Assembly: GCA_023150835.1 (NCBI GenBank)
Contig: JAKLKB010000105.1
Coordinates: 1-24,848, forward strand
Source of the DNA: Myxococcota bacterium
GTDB lineage: Bacteria > Myxococcota_C > UBA6777
DNA: 24,848 nt
Direction of reading: 5' to 3'
The translations under genes were made by a program, and so were the position numbers. The notes below the pieces were generated by a model, which saw only the letters and a program-made list of their open reading frames with translations, was not told the origin of the DNA and ran no database searches. This document shows, piece by piece, positions 113 to 24,848 of this stretch (its first letter is position 1; each line of letters begins with the position of its first letter).

Positions 113-153
113 CGGGGTGGGGGGCTTTCCTCCGCTTCACAAGGCGCGTATGG

Positions 154-175
154 GGGCAGCCCCCTGTGGCTGCCC
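154..175 (+). repeat. REP-like palindrome, copy 1
   Basis: GGGCAGCC (154-161) and GGCTGCCC (168-175) form an 8-bp stem. The same hairpin, followed by AAG, recurs near 20800 and several times after 24340. At this copy the tetranucleotide before the stem is GTAT-like rather than the GTAG seen at the other copies. The flanks also resemble the 20746-20880 copy: both continue into CTACG-CACTCTCC-like sequence and GATCACA. Confidence 0.6.
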
Positions 176-262
176 AAGCACAGGGCGTCTACGTACTCTC
201 CTTCGATCACAGATCACGCGGATATCGTCTCAATCCGACATCCCGACAAGAAGTGAACAGCC

Positions 263-4032: not shown

Positions 4033-4143
4033 CGCTGCGCTTGGCTTGCGCCTTACGGCTCGGCTTCGTCGCCTAAAGACGATCAAGACGAACAATCCGA
4101 ACAAACGCTGCGCTTGGCTTGCGCCTTACGGCTCGGCTTCGTC
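4033..4143. repeat. 38-bp direct repeat duplicating the dnaX 3' end
   Basis: An identical 38-bp sequence occurs at 4033-4070 and 4106-4143 (period 73). The second copy contains the final dnaX codons (D-E-A-E-P-stop) plus 20 bp downstream. The first copy is therefore a detached duplicate of the gene end. With the 61-bp tandem repeat next to it, most of the 305-bp dnaX-ybaB spacer is made of duplications. Confidence 0.85.
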
Positions 4144-13222: not shown

Positions 13223-13502
13223 ATGCAACGCCCTGCCCCATCGCCTCAAAAAGCCCACTGGCTGCTTGAGCCTGAAACGATCTTTCTCAACCACGGCTCT
13301 TTCGGCGCTTGCCCGCGACTTGTTCTCGAAGCCCAACACGCCTTGCGCCAACAACTCGAAGCCCAACCCGTACGCTTCTTTGTACGCGCCTATGAAACGC
13401 TGCTCGACCAAGCCCGACTCGCCCTTGCCGATTTCTTACACGCCGATCCCGAAGGCATCGCCTTTGTCCCCAACGCCACCCACGGCGTCAACACCGTCTT
13501 AC
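13223..13502 (+). pseudogene. Class-V aminotransferase, 5' fragment (interrupted by IS)
   Basis: This encodes the first 93 codons of an isopenicillin-N-epimerase-like class-V aminotransferase: FLNHGSFGACPRLV near residue 22 and a later FVPNATHGVNTVL. The frame runs ten codons into the inserted element and stops at 13534. Joining 13502 to 15257 restores NTVLRAIPFRSGDQ, the family sequence, in frame. The rebuilt protein is 396 residues, a normal length for the family. The fragment lacks the PLP lysine and cannot be active alone. It lies 12 bp downstream of the biotinyl carrier gene. Confidence 0.92.
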
Positions 13503-13519
13503 ATGAAGAGCCCGTAAAG

Positions 13520-13541
13520 CCCAATGCCTTTTAGGCTTGGG
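13520..13541 (+). repeat. Left-end subterminal hairpin of the IS
   Basis: CCCAA-(t)-GCC, loop TTTTA, GGC-TTGGG: an 8-bp stem with one bulged T, starting 17 nt inside the left end. A GTAA (13514-13517) just 5' of the foot is complementary to target TTAC, like the guide tetranucleotide that recognises cleavage sites in IS608-type elements. Confidence 0.75.
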
Positions 13542-13670
13542 ATATAAGGGCTTTTAAGCACTTGCGGCTTCAGCCGCTAATTTTTTGAAGTTTGGGTTGA
13601 CAAATTGGGGGAGTCGCTTGTACGCTAGAAATAATCCATCTTATCGAACAAGAGAGGTAGAATGGAATGA

Positions 13671-13858
13671 GTCCATCCAACCAAAAAGTATCACTCGACG
13701 CACAGTCTCGTTTATCGTTGCCAGTATCATGTCATTTTTTGTCCAAAATATCGGCGTCCTGTGTTGACATGTGGCATTGCCGAACGTCTGTTTCGACCGT
13801 TGGCAGCGTCACTTTGGACGTGGTGAAACAATACATTGAGCAACAAAAGGGGCGATAA
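13671..13858 (+). pseudogene. tnpA: Internally deleted tnpA (Y1 HUH transposase) relic
   Basis: Both ends of an IS200-type TnpA survive in different frames. From 13671 to about 13790 one frame reads HSLVYRCQYHVIFCPKYRRP and continues VLTCGIAERL, the conserved TnpA N-terminus. From about 13787 to the stop at 13856-13858 another frame reads SVSTVGSVTLDVVKQYIEQQ, the TnpA C-terminus. Only about 65 codons remain of about 130-150. The missing middle would carry the HUH motif and probably the catalytic Tyr. No good in-frame start remains (TGA precedes the N-terminal frame at 13668-13670). The relic ends 6 bp before tnpB. The simplest cause is one internal deletion with frame change near 13790. Confidence 0.78.
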
Positions 13859-13864
13859 GTCGAG

Positions 13865-15223
13865 ATGGTTCAAGTGAGCGAACAAAAGAAAGCCGCCATC
13901 AAAGACGCCTTGCGTCTGACCAAACTCCGGCGACAGACCCAAATCTGTAAGGTCTACGAACTCAAGCTCGACAAGTCCCGTTTCTCGAAAACCACTCTCC
14001 AACAACTCCAACGCCTGTTTGTTGAAGCCAAATGGTTTCGCAACGCCATCCTTGCTTCCGAAAACCTCTGGATGTTCGATACCAAAACCAAACAAGTTCA
14101 GGTCAAAGTCGACCAAGAATTCCAAACCCGACCTCTGACAGTGCTTGGCTCTCAACTCAAACAATCCATTCACGACCAAATCAAAAGTGAACTCTGTGGC
14201 TTATCCACCAAAAAGAAACAAGGTCACAAAGTCGGGGCTTTGAAGTTCAAGTCTTGGGTGGGCAGTGTGAACCTCAAACAACATGGCACCACCTACACCC
14301 TGTCCTCCAATGGTCGCCTGCGCATCCAAAACATCAAACAACGCCTTCGCACCCGTGGCATCGACCAGATTCCCCAAGGGGCTGAGTTTGCCAATGCCAA
14401 ATTGCTCTCCAGACATGGGGATTTTTATCTGCATGTCACCTGCTATCTGACAGCCCAACAACTCCAAGCCCACCATCACAAGAAACCCAAGAAGAATCCC
14501 AAACCCGCACTGCAACAAGTCGAAATTCTGGGACTCGACGTGGGAATCGCCCACCAACTGACCACAAGCAACGGCATCCAGGTGCAATATCGGGTGCCCA
14601 TCAGCCCCCAAATCCGAAAAGCCCACCAGAAGGTCAGCCGTACCCAAAAGCACTCCAACCATCGGAGGAAAGCCAGACAGAGACTGCAAAAAGCCTACGC
14701 GAAGACCACGAACATCAAGCAGAACCTCGTGAATCAGTTGGTGGCCTGCTTGTGCCTGTTTGTGAAAATCATTTGTGTGCAAGACGATTTTGTCAAAGGA
14801 TGGCAACGAATTTGGGGCAAACGGTTGTTTGAAACCACAATCGGCGGATTGATGGGCAAGTTGAAGAAGTTGCCAAACGCCGTGGTGGTCGAGCGTTGGT
14901 TTGCGTCGACGCAAACTTGTCACAGGTGTGCTCAGAAAACGCCGCACTCACTCAAAGAGAGAGTGTTTGTGTGCGGATGTTGCGGGCATACAGAGGACAG
15001 GGACGTGCATTCGGCCAAAAACATAGAAGAGAAGGGATGGAAAAAGAGGATAGGTGGGGAGCCTACCGAATCCTCGCAGGAGCCTCGCGGGAGGGCCTGT
15101 GAACCGACGCCTGTGGACATCAAGACCACTGCTCTGATGGTGGAATTCCTCAACCGGATTCCGCACATCCGAGCAAGTCTCGTGGCTGAAACAGGAAGCC
15201 TATTGGACAAGGACGTCCCTTAG
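13865..15223 (+). CDS. tnpB: TnpB, IS605 OrfB-family RNA-guided nuclease (variant RuvC site)
   Basis: A 452-residue TnpB. RuvC-I is GLDVGIAHQL with Asp225. The RuvC-II segment reads CVQDDFVKGW where the common form is V-E-D-L-N-x-K-G, so Gln306 aligns with the catalytic Glu, although Asp307 and Asp308 are adjacent. RuvC-III is EDRDVHSAKNI with Asp380 as likely ligand. The zinc finger is CHRC (near 358) paired with CGCC. A charged tail of about 65 residues follows and overlaps the region that normally encodes the omega RNA scaffold. Active TnpB uses that RNA to cut the empty donor site and so retain the element. Whether this protein cuts DNA is uncertain. Base composition differs from neighbours: no GATC and a Gln/Lys-rich product. 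Confidence 0.93.
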   Translation: MVQVSEQKKAAIKDALRLTKLRRQTQICKVYELKLDKSRFSKTTLQQLQRLFVEAKWFRNAILASENLWMFDTKTKQVQVKVDQEFQTRPLTVLGSQLKQSIHDQIKSELCGLSTKKKQGHKVGALKFKSWVGSVNLKQHGTTYTLSSNGRLRIQNIKQRLRTRGIDQIPQGAEFANAKLLSRHGDFYLHVTCYLTAQQLQAHHHKKPKKNPKPALQQVEILGLDVGIAHQLTTSNGIQVQYRVPISPQIRKAHQKVSRTQKHSNHRRKARQRLQKAYAKTTNIKQNLVNQLVACLCLFVKIICVQDDFVKGWQRIWGKRLFETTIGGLMGKLKKLPNAVVVERWFASTQTCHRCAQKTPHSLKERVFVCGCCGHTEDRDVHSAKNIEEKGWKKRIGGEPTESSQEPRGRACEPTPVDIKTTALMVEFLNRIPHIRASLVAETGSLLDKDVP

Positions 15224-15256
15224 GAAGCCCAAGCCTTATAGGCTTGGGTAGCTCAC
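15100..15256 (+). ncRNA. Predicted omega RNA scaffold (3' end of tnpB to right end)
   Basis: In TnpB elements the guide RNA scaffold is derived from the 3' part of tnpB and the right end, and its guide is the flank just outside. By analogy the scaffold would end at 15256 and the guide would begin GTGCGATCCCCTTCCG at 15257, which is aminotransferase sequence. The 5' limit is a guess. The right-end hairpin at 15228-15248 would fall in the RNA. Confidence 0.4.
15228..15248 (+). repeat. Right-end subterminal hairpin of the IS
   Basis: CCCAAGCC, loop TTATA, GGCTTGGG: a perfect 8-bp stem ending 8 nt before the right cleavage site. The stem is the same as at the left end apart from the bulge, and the loop differs by one transposition of bases, so both would be bound by one TnpA. 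Confidence 0.85.
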
Positions 15257-16167
15257 GTGCGATCCCCTTCCGATCGGGCGATCAGATCCTGATCACCGAT
15301 CACGGATACAACGCCTGCAACAACGCGGCTCGCCTCATCGCAAAACACCACCACGCCGAAGTCATCGTTGCTTCTCTGCCTTTTCCAACACAAGAGACCG
15401 CCCAACTCCACGACGCCGTCCTCCAACACATCACGCCCCGCACCCGCCTTGTCTTGCTCGATCACGTCACCAGCCCTTCGGCGCTGATCCTCCCGATCCA
15501 CTCGTTGATCCCGAAGCTACGCGAACGCGGTATCCTCACCTTGATCGACGGTGCCCACGCACCCGGCATGTTGCCGCTTGATCTGCGCACGCTTGATCCT
15601 GATTTCTACACAGGCAACTGCCACAAATGGATGTGCGCCCCCAAAGGCACGGCGTTTTTGTACGTCCGCGACTCTTGGCGCGAATCCCTTCAACCTCTCG
15701 CCATCAGCCACGGCGAAAATGACCTACGCTCCGAACGCAGCCGCTTTCACAAGCGATTCGATTGGGTGGGTACAGGCGATCCCACTCCCTATCTCACCCT
15801 TCCCACCGTCCTTTCCACTCTCCCTCAGATCCTTCAACTCTCTTGGCAAGACCTCCAACAACAACAACACGAAAAAGCCTGTGCCGCGAGGCAACTGCTC
15901 TCACAACGCCTCTCTCTGCCTCTGCTCTGCCCTGATCATCTGCTCGGTAGCATGGCCGCTTTGCCCCTTCCCCCACTCCCTTCTTCCCCACCACCCGGCA
16001 CGATCGACCCTCTCCAACAGCGCCTCTTTACCGACCACGCCATCGAGATCCCCGTCATGCCCTACCCTTCGCAAAATCAACGACTGCTCCGCCTCTCCGC
16101 ACACGCCTACAACACCACCGACGAATATCTCTATCTCGCTCACGCGCTCTCAGCCCTCCTTTCCTAA
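15257..16167 (+). pseudogene. Class-V aminotransferase, 3' fragment (interrupted by IS)
   Basis: The remaining 302 codons of the split gene. The original frame resumes at CGT GCG ATC with the C of TTAC. Visible family features are LITDHGYNACNNAARLI, LLDHVTSPSALILPI, the DGAHAPGML motif with the PLP-contacting Asp-x-x-His, and YTGNCHKWMCAPKG with the PLP-binding Lys (HK). A TTG at 15244 inside the element could start a 307-residue product missing the first domain, but no ribosome-binding site supports it. Relatives include isopenicillin-N epimerases and cysteine desulfurase-like enzymes. The substrate is unknown. Confidence 0.92.
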
Positions 16168-20730: not shown

Positions 20731-20799
20731 CGAACACCTCCAAGCATGAAATCAGGATCGAACTTGTACGAAATCCGCCCGTTGCGTTATCGTAAAGGT

Positions 20800-20825
20800 G
20801 TAGGGGTTGTCCCCCGTGGCTGCCC
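20800..20825 (+). repeat. REP-like palindrome, diverged copy
   Basis: GTAG (20800-20803) followed by GGGTTGTCCCCCGTGGCTGC-CC. The right arm GGCTGCCC matches the other copies, but the left arm has decayed so the stem is imperfect. Upstream, ACGAAATCCGCCCGTTG matches the 87-bp units at 24311-24571, so this is a full but degenerate unit. Confidence 0.65.
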
Positions 20826-21040
20826 AAGAATAGGGCCTCTACGCACTCTCCTACGATCACACATCGCTCAGATATCGTATGATGCGGTTGGGCTTATTCC
20901 TATCTCAGAAAAGAGTCCGCTTTGTTTTCAGAAACATCAAGCCTCTGATAGTAGAACCCCACTCCGAAAAGTTCCCCACCCCACAAAAAGACTTTTTCGC
21001 GAAGCGATACCCTCGTTTTTCCCCGTGTTTGTGTGGGGCG

Positions 21041-21115: not shown

Positions 21116-22069
21116 ATGGAACCCACCATCCCGCCGCCCGAACCATCCAACACCAACGAATCCGCCCCCGCTCCCTCTAAGACCAACGAACCCACGCCCG
21201 ATTCGGACACTTCTCTACTCGTCCCCGAACCCGACGCTTCTCTCCTCGCCCCCGTCTCCGAAAATATCCGCCAAGATGCCGCCCCTTGGTGCTTTCGCAT
21301 CCGCGATCTGGGCAAATGCTTTGGCACACACTGGGCCGTTCGGAACCTTTCGATCACATTGCGCCACGGCGAAGTGTACGGACTTCTCGGACCCAACGGT
21401 GCAGGAAAAACCACCACCCTACGCATGATCGCTGGATTGATCGAACCCGACGAAGGCAGTCTCCAACTGTCTGGCGTTGATCGCGATGCTGCCCCCCTCG
21501 AAGCGCGAAAAAAGATCGGCTTTGTCACAGGCAGCACAGGACTTTACCAACGCCTTACACCCATCGAGCTTTTGCACTTCTTCGCCAAGCTCCACGAGAT
21601 CCCCAAACACGATGCCCAACGCCGCATCGACGAACTGGTCGAAGCTCTCGCCTTACACAGTTTCGCCAAACAACAAGCAGCCACCCTCTCCACCGGCCAG
21701 AAACAACGCGTCAATCTCGCACGCGCTTTGTTGCATCAACCCACCCTGTTGATCCTCGATGAACCCACCGCAGGACTCGATATCATCAGCGCTGACTTTA
21801 TCCTTCAAACCATCCAAAAAGCCCGAAAAGACGGACGCAGCGTGATCCTTAGCACGCACATCCTGACCGAAACCGAGTTGCTCTGTGATCGCATCGGTGT
21901 CCTCTTTGGCGGAAAGCTCGCCCAAGAAGGCTCTCTTGCGCAGCTCTTCCAATCCACCCAAACCCACAGTCTCGCCCAAGCCTTCCTCAAGATCATCCAA
22001 CAAGCCGACCCGCTCGCTGCCCCCCACGCTTCCGCACAGTTGAACCACGCCACGGAGAACGCATCATGA
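21116..22069 (+). CDS. ABC transporter ATPase, NatA-like
   Basis: A 317-residue product from ATG 21116, supported by GGAGAGG. An unusual Pro/Ser/Asn-rich N-terminal extension of about 55 residues precedes the ATPase domain, which starts near CFRIRDLGKCFG. Walker A is GPNGAGKTT, the signature LSTGQKQRV, Walker B LLILDEPTAGLD, and the H-loop is STHI. Closest family pattern is the NatA/DrrA-type exporters. ATP hydrolysis would power the permease encoded next; the ATGA overlap at 22066-22069 shows translational coupling. The substrate cannot be told from sequence; sodium extrusion is the precedent for NatAB. Confidence 0.9.
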   Translation: MEPTIPPPEPSNTNESAPAPSKTNEPTPDSDTSLLVPEPDASLLAPVSENIRQDAAPWCFRIRDLGKCFGTHWAVRNLSITLRHGEVYGLLGPNGAGKTTTLRMIAGLIEPDEGSLQLSGVDRDAAPLEARKKIGFVTGSTGLYQRLTPIELLHFFAKLHEIPKHDAQRRIDELVEALALHSFAKQQAATLSTGQKQRVNLARALLHQPTLLILDEPTAGLDIISADFILQTIQKARKDGRSVILSTHILTETELLCDRIGVLFGGKLAQEGSLAQLFQSTQTHSLAQAFLKIIQQADPLAAPHASAQLNHATENAS

Positions 22070-24309
22070 GATGGCCGATTGTACACACCCTTTGGAAAAA
22101 AGAGATGCTTGAGATGCTGCGTGATCGACGCACCATCCTGATCATGGTTCTCTTGCCGCTCGTCCTTTACCCTGTCATCGGCATCATCACCAGCCAAGCA
22201 CAATCCGCTCACGTCCAAAAGCTCCAAGCCTCCCGACTGCGCGTCGGACTGGTGGGCGCTGCGCTTCCTGCTCCCCTCATGCAAAAACTCTTGCGAAACA
22301 ACGAACTCGAACATATCCCCCCCTACGCTCCTTGGAAAGAACGCCTCGCCCAAAAACAACTTCACGCCATCCTCGACACCAGCTATCCCTCCATCCCCTC
22401 GACACAACCCGTCTCAACGCCATCAACCGCCCAACCAAAGCATCCACGCCCCCCCACAAACATCGCCCCTCCTTCGGCCTCTCTGCCCAAACATCCCGAA
22501 ACCGCCCCTCCTGCGGCTTCTCTACCCGCCTCCACAAAAGCCGCTCTCCTGCTCTCGCCAAGGAGTCCCTCCACATCCTTGCCGTCGATGCGTCTTACCG
22601 CGCCTCCGCCCTACACCATCCGCGTGATCTACCTGTCCACATGGGATGCTTCTCGCACTGCGTCTCGGCGCATCGAAGATATCCTCCGCGAGTTTCACCG
22701 CGAAGCCCTTCAAAAGCGCCTCCAAGACTTCCGCATCGCACCTGCTTTTGTGCAAGTCTTTACCGTCAAAACCCAAGACACCGCCAGTGCTCAAGCCCGT
22801 GGCCGCGACTTGCTTGGCACCATGCTTCCTTTGCTGCTAATCATCATGACCATCGTTGGGGCGCTTTACCCTGCGGTCGATCTCACCGCTGGAGAAAAAG
22901 AACGCGGCACTCTCGAAACGCTCTTAACTGCCCCCATCACCTCGATTGAGATCGTCACAGGAAAATACCTCACGATCTTCTGTATCTCCCTCGCAACGGG
23001 CCTGCTCAATATGTTTTCGCTTTGGCTCACCTTTAGCCAAGGGCTGCGGATGCTTGCAAGCAACCGTAAACTCGCGATCGATATGACACTCAACTTCCAA
23101 CATTATCTCGCATTGATCGGCTTCTTGGCGCTGATCGCTGCGCTTTCTTCGGCGGTCATGCTCTCCATGGCCAGTTTCGCTCGATCCTTCAAAGAAGGCC
23201 AAAACTACACCACGCCTGCCTATCTGCTTTGCTTTATGCCTGCCTTCCTTGCCACCTTGCCCGGGGCCAAACCTTCGCTCACCAGCGCCATGATCCCTTT
23301 TGTCAACGTCGCCTACGCCATCAAAGGCACCATCAAAGGCGATCTCAGCTTGGATTATGCCCTACTCACCGTCTTTTCCATGCTCGTTGTCACCGTCGCT
23401 TTTTTGCGCCTTTCTGCGATGATCTTTCAAAACGAGCAAGTCCTCTTTCGCGAAGGCGATATCTCTTGGCGTGGCCTGTTTTCGCAAAACACTGCTCACC
23501 CCCAACCCCTCCCAAACATCAGCGACACCTTTTTCTTGCTCAGTCTCCAGTTCGCATTGTTCTTTTACGTCGGCCTCAGCCTCCAACAGAAAAACATCGC
23601 CCTTGGTACAGCGATCACGCTGTGGGGCATCTTTTTGTTGCCTGCTGTTCTTTGGGCGCGCACGCGGCACCTCGATATCAAAGCCACCTTTCGCCTACAA
23701 CCGTTGCCTCTTCGGCAGATCCCGCCGATCCTCTTGATCGTCTTGGGCGGCCTGCCGCTGGTTTTGATCATCACCTATTACACCTCGATGTGGCTCTTCC
23801 CCGATTGGCTCGAATTTGCCCGCAAGATGAACGAATCCCTCTCCCTCAAAAGCTTCGGCATCAGCACACCCGTCTTTTTCTTGATCTTGGCTCTCTCCCC
23901 CGGGATCTGTGAAGAGGCCGTATTTCGGGGCTTTGCGCTCTCTTCTTTCCACAAACGCCTCTCGCCTCAAACCGCCATCGCCCTTTCTGCCTTTCTTTTC
24001 GCAGCCTTTCACCTCAGCTTGTATCGGCTTTTGCCGACCTTTCTGCTCGGCCTTGTCTTTGGCTGGCTTTGTTGGCGCACGGGTTCGCTGTACGCTTCCG
24101 TCCTCGCACACACGCTCCACAACGCTCTCAGCCTTGCCATCGGCCTTTTCTTCGCGAAAACCGCCATCGCTCGCTCCCTCGATCAACAACCCGCTGTTTG
24201 GTGGCTCCCTCTCGGCCTGATCCTCTTTGTCACGGGCATCGTCTGGCTCCATCGCATCGCTCCCCCGCCACGATCCGCAAAAACGCCCCTTTCCGATCCA
24301 CGTACCTGA
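22066..24309 (+). CDS. ABC-2 permease fused to CPBP intramembrane protease
   Basis: A 747-residue fusion. Residues 1-430 are a NatB/ABC-2-type permease: a TM helix near 25-45 after KKEMLEMLRDRRT, a large extracytoplasmic loop, then several TM helices including LLGTMLPLLLIIMTIVGALYP and the ERGTLETLLTAP coupling helix. From about 475 a second membrane domain matches CPBP (CAAX protease/bacteriocin-processing) enzymes: EEAVFRG with Glu616-Glu617, FAAFH with His649, and H-T-L-H-N with His682 and Asn686, the expected metal-site residues. So protease activity looks intact. A Pro/Ser-rich insert (about 105-180) interrupts the extracytoplasmic loop. ABC-2/CPBP fusions are known in several bacteria. 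The gene ends two bases before an array of 87-bp repeats. Confidence 0.9.
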   Translation: MRWPIVHTLWKKEMLEMLRDRRTILIMVLLPLVLYPVIGIITSQAQSAHVQKLQASRLRVGLVGAALPAPLMQKLLRNNELEHIPPYAPWKERLAQKQLHAILDTSYPSIPSTQPVSTPSTAQPKHPRPPTNIAPPSASLPKHPETAPPAASLPASTKAALLLSPRSPSTSLPSMRLTAPPPYTIRVIYLSTWDASRTASRRIEDILREFHREALQKRLQDFRIAPAFVQVFTVKTQDTASAQARGRDLLGTMLPLLLIIMTIVGALYPAVDLTAGEKERGTLETLLTAPITSIEIVTGKYLTIFCISLATGLLNMFSLWLTFSQGLRMLASNRKLAIDMTLNFQHYLALIGFLALIAALSSAVMLSMASFARSFKEGQNYTTPAYLLCFMPAFLATLPGAKPSLTSAMIPFVNVAYAIKGTIKGDLSLDYALLTVFSMLVVTVAFLRLSAMIFQNEQVLFREGDISWRGLFSQNTAHPQPLPNISDTFFLLSLQFALFFYVGLSLQQKNIALGTAITLWGIFLLPAVLWARTRHLDIKATFRLQPLPLRQIPPILLIVLGGLPLVLIITYYTSMWLFPDWLEFARKMNESLSLKSFGISTPVFFLILALSPGICEEAVFRGFALSSFHKRLSPQTAIALSAFLFAAFHLSLYRLLPTFLLGLVFGWLCWRTGSLYASVLAHTLHNALSLAIGLFFAKTAIARSLDQQPAVWWLPLGLILFVTGIVWLHRIAPPPRSAKTPLSDPRT

Positions 24310-24310
24310 T

Positions 24311-24571
24311 ACGAAATCCGCCCGTTGTGTGATCGTAAAAACGTAGGGGCAGCCCCCCGTGGCTGCCCAAGAATCGTATGGGGTGGAACCCCATCATACG
24401 AAATCCGCCCGTCGTGTGATCGTAAAAATGTAGGGGCAGCCCCCTGTGGCTGCCCAAGAATCGTATGGGGTGGAACCCCATCATACGAGATCCGCCCGTT
24501 GTGTGATCGTAAAAATGTAGGGGCAGACAGGTGTGGCTGCCCAAGAATTGTATGGGGTGGAACCCCATCAG
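24311..24571 (+). repeat. Three tandem 87-bp REP-containing units
   Basis: Units start at 24311, 24398 and 24485. Each has ACGAAATCCGCCCGTTGTG, then GTAAAAA, GTAG and the hairpin GGGCAGCC/GGCTGCCC, then a second palindrome CGTATGGGGT/ACCCCATCATACG. GTAG feet are at 24343, 24430 and 24517. The third unit has a damaged left hairpin arm (GGGCAGACAG). The array lies directly after the permease stop and could act as a transcript-end structure. Confidence 0.88.
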
Positions 24572-24677
24572 AGGGCGTCTGGAAACTCGCTACATGACAG
24601 TTGAAGAAAACAACGAAAACTCGAGGGGTTCGTTCAAAACAGATAGCGATGAAGAGGTCAGCGACGCAACAGAGCGA

Positions 24678-24753
24678 GGGCAGGCACGGGGGCCTGCCCC
24701 TACAAAACACCGTGTGATTTCCGACACGTAGGGGCAACCATGCGCGGTTGCCC
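24678..24753. repeat. Inverted pair of REP-like hairpins (REPIN/BIME-like)
   Basis: Left member: GGGCAGGC/GCCTGCCC (24678-24699) followed by CTAC (24700-24703). Right member: GTAG (24728-24731) followed by GGGCAACC/GGTTGCCC (24732-24753). The two face each other across a 24-bp linker. Their stems differ from each other and from the 24343 type by paired changes that keep pairing. The last 95 bases of the window after this hold no feature I can support. Confidence 0.75.
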
Positions 24754-24848
24754 TCGCTGAGAAGTGTTGCCTCTTGGGGTGAGGGGAATCACAAGACGTC
24801 CATTCCTTCGATGTTTCTGTGTACACATCCAAAAGATCTCACTGTTTT

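Follow-up and report, generated by a model that had tools for sequence, protein, structure and literature searches.

The right end of the window, as we call the whole 24,848-nucleotide stretch of DNA analysed here, carries a group of hairpins with the foot GTAG. The locus raises the question of whether these hairpins are genuine REPs and, if so, which enzyme has dispersed them. How REPs spread has been in question, and RAYT is the favoured candidate. The window corresponds to contig 42 in a draft genome of 7.56 Mb (G000; 239 contigs, 93% complete). The comparison within the phylum covers five genomes, G000 to G004, of which G001 is the congener.

Hairpins and repeats in the window

Each hairpin consists of GTAG, an 8-bp stem and a 6-nt loop, as read from the letters of the window. 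Three lie in tandem on the plus strand at 24343-24368 and 24430-24455 (stem GGGCAGCC/GGCTGCCC in both) and at 24517-24542 (GGGCAGAC/GGCTGCCC, with one imperfect pair). A fourth lies on the minus strand at 24678-24703 (GGGCAGGC/GCCTGCCC) and a fifth on the plus strand at 24728-24753 (GGGCAACC/GGTTGCCC). As in GTAG REPs, an imperfect palindrome rich in GC follows immediately 3' of the GT[AG]G motif. Folded as single-stranded DNA, the five hairpins have energies of -8.7 to -9.9 kcal/mol and z-scores of -3.0 to -3.7 against dinucleotide shuffles. The preliminary description listed those at 24343, 24430 and 24728 and the inverted copy at 24678-24703, all of which are borne out by direct reading and folding, but overlooked the tandem copy at 24517-24542. 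Its statement that both stem arms change together also holds. The variants AGCC/GGCT, AACC/GGTT and AGGC/GCCT are present, and stem covariation is 0.135, compared with 0.068 in shuffles (0/500) and 0.089 or less in slid registers (n=34 distinct genomic variants). The related copies it named at 154 and 20800 are both present but decayed. The copy at 154-175 has a whole stem and has lost its foot (GTATGG); the copy at 20800-20825 has kept its foot and lost its stem (z -0.97 against dinucleotide shuffles). On the minus strand, at 24434-24455 and 24347-24368, the REP stem is followed by CTAC-ATTTTT, an arrangement similar to an intrinsic terminator serving the opposite strand.

The three tandem hairpins belong to an array of 3 x 87 bp (24309-24570, plus strand, 94% matches). 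The array unit is made up of the left arm of a MITE (TACGAAATCCGCCCGTTGTGTGATCGTAAAAAT), the REP and a second small hairpin, GTATGGGGTGGAACCCCATC; the right MITE end is absent. The left terminal inverted repeat (TIR) of this MITE, which we call class I, is TACGAAATCCG at 24310-24320 in the first unit, and it recurs at 24397 and, in the form TACGAGATCCG, at 24484 (plus strand). The TGA stop codon (24307-24309) of a 747-aa ABC permease-like gene (22066-24309, plus strand) occupies the place expected for the TNA target copy. Homology to the congener ends exactly at 24310, directly after this stop codon. The array is a rearranged MITE class I copy, set at the stop codon. Within the permease-like gene, approximately 117 bp (22441-22557; 39 Pro/Thr/Ala-rich codons) are missing from the 92% identical G001. 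A complete 113-bp MITE class I is present at 20767-20879 (plus strand), with TIRs at 20767-20777 and 20869-20879 around the decayed REP at 20800-20825. Its flanking triplets are TTG and TGA, and a perfect duplication is no longer present. The right half of another copy lies at 148-229 (plus strand), with the REP stem at 154-175 and the right TIR, CGGATATCGTC, at 219-229.

Another repeated element starts at 24571 and runs off the contig at 24848 (plus strand). Its ends are GAGGGCGTCTGGAAA, then CTCGCTACATGACAG at 24586-24600, it encloses the facing pair of REPs, and several contigs carry further copies of it. The preliminary description took this pair (24678-24753) for a REPIN. In a REPIN the feet point outward and the pair is the mobile unit. 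Here the feet point inward (CTAC-24 nt-GTAG), and the pair recurs as a block inside the larger repeat. The spacer between the feet (24704-24727) has a length of 24 nt, which is constant in four copies in the sample and in G001. The orientation and the fixed block context rule out a free-standing REPIN. An insertion sequence with CTCGCTACATGACAG ends and a DDE_Tnp_1 transposase (L250, contig C103) has an end in common with the element from 24571. It was considered as the source of MITE class I and rejected, since it accounts for the right edge of the window instead.

Other repeats and mobile sequences occur elsewhere in the window. An IS605-type element at approximately 13535-15230 (TnpB 13865-15223, Y1 remnant 13710-13793) divides an aminotransferase-like gene into ORFs 13223-13534 and 15244-16167. 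There is a perfect 38-bp direct repeat at 4033-4070 and 4106-4143, and a tandem repeat of 3 x 39 nt at 1127-1243, close to the 3' end of an ORF.

Genomic copies and the cognate RAYT gene

A strict REP pattern matches 398 places in the genome, compared with 1 for the reversed pattern used as a control, and a relaxed pattern matches 617 (control 1). The relatives contain 109 (G001), 12 (G003) and no copies (G002 and G004). REP statistics rest on 1.06 Mb of G000, whose first 40 stretches were chosen mostly from REP-bearing contigs, and on 0.52 Mb of G001; an unbiased 0.26 Mb of G000 contains 35 REPs. The 1.06-Mb sample contains 173 REPs, 144 of them between genes, even though a simple ORF call (100 codons or more) assigns 86% of this DNA to coding sequence. 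An Rfam search returned no relevant family.

The genome contains a single RAYT gene, on contig C113. Its 254-aa product has the HuH motif MPNHIH and the tyrosine motif IRQYI, matches Pfam Y1_Tnp above the cut-off and aligns to the solved E. coli TnpA-REP (PDB 4er8, E 0.0017). The match to NF047646 (E 9e-16) scores 58 bits, below the cut-off of 80, and is split by a long insert. Five REPs lie directly 3' of the gene. Two further hairpins are inserted in frame into the linker between the catalytic motifs; their stem, GGGCAGGC/GCCTGCCC, is identical to that of the window hairpin at 24678-24703. The high copy number, the intergenic preference and the REP-flanked RAYT-type Y1 gene are what the preliminary description proposed to look for. 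By their anatomy, the window hairpins are genuine GTAG REPs that match a RAYT gene elsewhere in the genome. By the in-frame REPs in the linker, they belong to a RAYT system like TnpA-REP subclass 2.4, for which such insertions between the HuH and tyrosine motifs have already been described (Quentin et al. 2018, PMC6006769). A REP inside a RAYT gene is therefore published, and we dropped it as a novelty.

The RAYT of G001 is 43% identical to that on C113 and is flanked by a different REP type, GTAGGGGCGGTTCGCGAACCGCCC. The G004 RAYT gene (L058 830-1480) has a dense row of GGGCAAGTGGAAACTTGCCCC hairpins upstream, also a different REP type, several of them with the foot GTAA. In a set of 80 RAYT loci drawn from many phyla, GTAGGGG and/or CCCCTAC is present in this linker in most of the full ORFs, a share that is biased because the query sequence itself contained such a linker.

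Inverted ends, target duplications and empty sites

When the surroundings of the REPs are aligned, the arm before the foot and the tail after the stem are conserved. A scan for the inverted ends TACGA[A/T/G]ATCCG recovers 111 end-to-end elements, nearly all of 99-124 bp, with length modes at 112-113 and 121-122 bp. Class I, the main element, is 112-122 bp long with the ends TACGAWATCCG. Like MITEs in general, these elements are short, non-coding and uniform in length and have terminal inverted repeats. In direct arrays of the REP, the unit length ranges from 39 to approximately 170 bp, and some arrays lie within intact ends. The 122-bp form has as its core a complete REPIN whose feet point outward, with a spacer of 7 nt.

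Deduplication leaves 96 class I elements. A 3-bp direct repeat flanks 42 of them (permutation mean 13.4, maximum 29; 10,000 permutations). The fourth flanking base matches in 0/96 and the inverted triplet in 2/96. The duplicated triplet is TNA in 41/42 cases (T in 41/42, A in 42/42), the target and duplication length of IS5/IS1031-type elements. Of the pairs with TNA on both sides, 43/61 share the middle base, so that a longer inverted repeat cannot account for the triplet match. The remaining 54/96 elements are without a perfect duplication, which we attribute to age or arrays.

The congener is approximately 92% identical to G000, and empty sites can be read in it. At L155:14116-14237 the inserted form is GTG-TGA-[ TACGAAATCC...GATCGTA ]-TGA-CGCC, and the empty site in G001 is GTGTGACGCC, with a single TGA. 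Two more insertions are found only in G000: L040:6683-6794 has the triplet TTA and an insertion near L175 5830-5985 the triplet TGC, each single in G001. An insertion opposite L155:14450 is found only in G001, with the triplet TGA, and a further G001 element is nested inside another class I element with TCA/TCA flanks. The duplications and empty sites of class I are marks of DDE-type transposition.

In total, 158 of 173 sampled REPs (approximately 91%) lie in the context of TIR elements, a share that includes copies recognised by a single end or arm. Class I takes in 66 REPs within elements that have both ends, 46 within elements with a single end and 15 placed by arm or tail alone; 21 belong to class II, 10 to class III and 15 to no element class. 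In class II, the inward pair with its 24-nt spacer is bounded by GGGTTCGTTCAAA and TTTGAACGGACCC, and 8-bp repeats border one site (two contigs with the same flanks, counted as one event). Class III is 116 bp long, with the ends TAGGACTTACGCAGTT, the REP GGTT-CGCG-AACC and 7-8-bp repeats at few sites. Its ends also hold another core of approximately 170 bp, GTGGGGTTCCACCCCAC...CTTGACCCCG (L044 6054-6223, L234 4503-4673, L248 16319-16487). This core is itself an abundant repeat of the genome. The REP is thus carried by three or more kinds of element with TIRs.

These elements bear on a classical REP/REPIN explanation, in which single-strand transposition by RAYT moves the hairpins and the shared flanks are no more than long REPIN spacers or context duplicated long ago. 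The presence of a RAYT gene that has REPs both next to it and within it is consistent with this, as are the outward REPINs with a 7-nt spacer, and tandem REPIN clusters that include flanks have been described (Bertels and Rainey, PMC3116915). However, the flanks have defined inverted ends, a uniform length, a 3-bp TNA duplication and empty sites. We know of no 3-bp target duplications made by Y1 transposases of the RAYT/IS200 kind. IS200/IS605 elements have neither TIRs nor larger target duplications (PMC2817692). We consider this explanation quite unlikely. REPs from other phyla also count against it. In G007 (Aminicenantes) and G013 (Ardenticatenales), the same hairpin type occurs free-standing, singly or mostly as outward pairs, without the shell.

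Flanks were compared between phyla by local alignment, because indels in the arms make an ungapped comparison uninformative. For the 45 nt before the foot, the share of high-scoring pairs is 31% in G000 (control 0), 13% in G007, where the flanks are of low complexity and the control reaches 7%, and 0.2% in G013, equal to its control. Some 26-mers are letter-identical across phyla (GTAGGGGCAACCCCCTGTGGTTGCCC and GTAGGGGCAGGCCCCCGTGCCTGCCC). Identical 26-nt REPs in three phyla point either to RAYT/REP transfer or to a very tight recognition constraint.

The hairpin could also be part of an ordinary MITE, with a stem-loop that is REP-like by chance and a GTAG foot without meaning. Nearly all copies do lie within TIR elements, as this would predict. 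It is nevertheless very improbable, since three element classes with different ends all carry the GTAGGGGC hairpin type, the same hairpins flank RAYT genes and lie within them, in this genome as well as in other phyla, and some letter-identical REPs in other phyla lie outside any such MITE.

A third alternative is that the hairpins persist because they terminate transcription or protect mRNA 3' ends, with mobility as a secondary trait. In the 1.06-Mb sample, convergent gaps are enriched for REPs (42/102, compared with 19% of gap length), and CTAC-ATTTTT follows the hairpin on the minus strand. In addition, the target triplet is a stop codon in 28% of class I elements, whereas the share among intergenic TNA sites is 17% (p 0.01). 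This excess is weak, and with stricter ORFs p is 0.08. An apparent 3-fold excess, which had suggested stop-codon targeting, came from a comparison with an ORF-call background and falls to 28% against 17% under an equal rule, and we take it as no more than a hint. A bias towards intergenic and convergent sites is also expected from purifying selection against insertions into genes and 5' regions, and the empty sites in the congener mark these copies as dispensable. We regard retention as terminators as rather unlikely to be the primary explanation. Approximately a quarter of class I copies (for example L040, L155, L169 and window position 24307) target a stop codon, which the duplication restores.

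Proposed dispersal and comparison with known systems

Most REP copies have probably been spread by an ordinary transposase of the cut-and-paste type, not by the REP transposase. Since approximately 91% of the REPs are cores of TIR elements and class I makes TNA duplications, RAYT is probably not the main disperser. The preliminary view of the hairpins as REPs recognised by RAYT thus stands for the family, its copies, their intergenic bias and the RAYT gene, but not for RAYT as the disperser of most copies. We consider it likely that these GTAG REPs are the cores of short non-autonomous transposons that are dispersed by a DDE transposase, with RAYT acting on the cores alone.

In this lineage, the REP would have become such a core. 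IS5-family elements of the IS1031-like kind make a 3-bp TNA target duplication. By this TNA rule, class I was most likely dispersed in trans by a putative IS5/IS1031-type DDE transposase acting on the ends TACGAWATCCG. Searches of the draft genome with PF01609 and PF13586 found no autonomous DDE element with these ends, and none of the five DDE_Tnp_1 matches in the genome has them; the draft assembly (239 contigs, 93% complete) may have lost the autonomous partner. An IS5-like transposase remnant (L253 1472-1880) has TTA flanks and different ends of its own, GAGGGTGTTTGCG.

Proximity and the pattern of arrays and variants suggest that RAYT probably acts on the core alone. It may cut at GTAG, by which stem variants would be exchanged between cores, and it may add a second REP to give an outward REPIN within a MITE. 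It may also help direct tandem arrays to form, of which the window's 3 x 87 bp array would be one. Either strand of the core folds into a hairpin, followed on the minus strand by CTAC-ATTTTT, and copies beside gene ends may serve as terminators as well. More tentatively, this may be an element with two engines, in which a DDE transposase copies the shell, RAYT cuts, exchanges and tandemly amplifies the core, and three unrelated MITE classes have each captured and kept the same RAYT substrate.

In this genome pair, most REP copies have been placed by an element with TIRs and target duplications, and the empty sites are readable at approximately 92% identity. REP copy number alone is thus no evidence of RAYT activity. 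The pair offers a natural system for separating the contributions of DDE transposases and RAYT.

The system resembles the GTAG REPs and REPtrons of TnpA-REP subclass 2.4 (PMC6006769) in the GTAG foot, the GC-rich stem and the single RAYT gene. REPs likewise flank that gene and lie in frame between its HuH and tyrosine motifs, and double-foot or outward pairs occur in both. It differs in that approximately 91% of the dispersed REPs lie within TIR elements, and in its occurrence in a hardly sampled phylum. With REPINs (Bertels and Rainey 2011, PMC3116915) it shares inverted pairs, tandem clusters that include flanks and, in the 122-bp elements, an outward pair with a 7-nt spacer. Unlike in REPINs, the feet of the window pair point inward across a fixed 24-nt spacer, and what inserts is a unit that extends beyond the pair.

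Bacterial MITEs with TNA targets (IS5, IS1031-like) are, as is generally known, likewise approximately 110-120 bp long, non-coding, bounded by TIRs, flanked by a duplicated TNA, intergenic and nested. Here, in contrast, a REP or REPIN of RAYT type forms the core, and the parental insertion sequence was not found in the draft genome. In the open-access literature searched, which covers only a minority of subscription journals and preprints, no paper was found that describes MITEs with TIRs and target duplications built around a REP core. TIRtrons and TIRYTs (Di Nocera et al. 2013, PMC3733652) also link tyrosine transposases with repeats of the TIR type, and the text of that paper makes no mention of a duplication. 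In TIRtrons the TIRs flank the transposase gene, whereas here they enclose the REP itself. REPs inside a RAYT gene were already known; the new part is the shell outside the hairpin.
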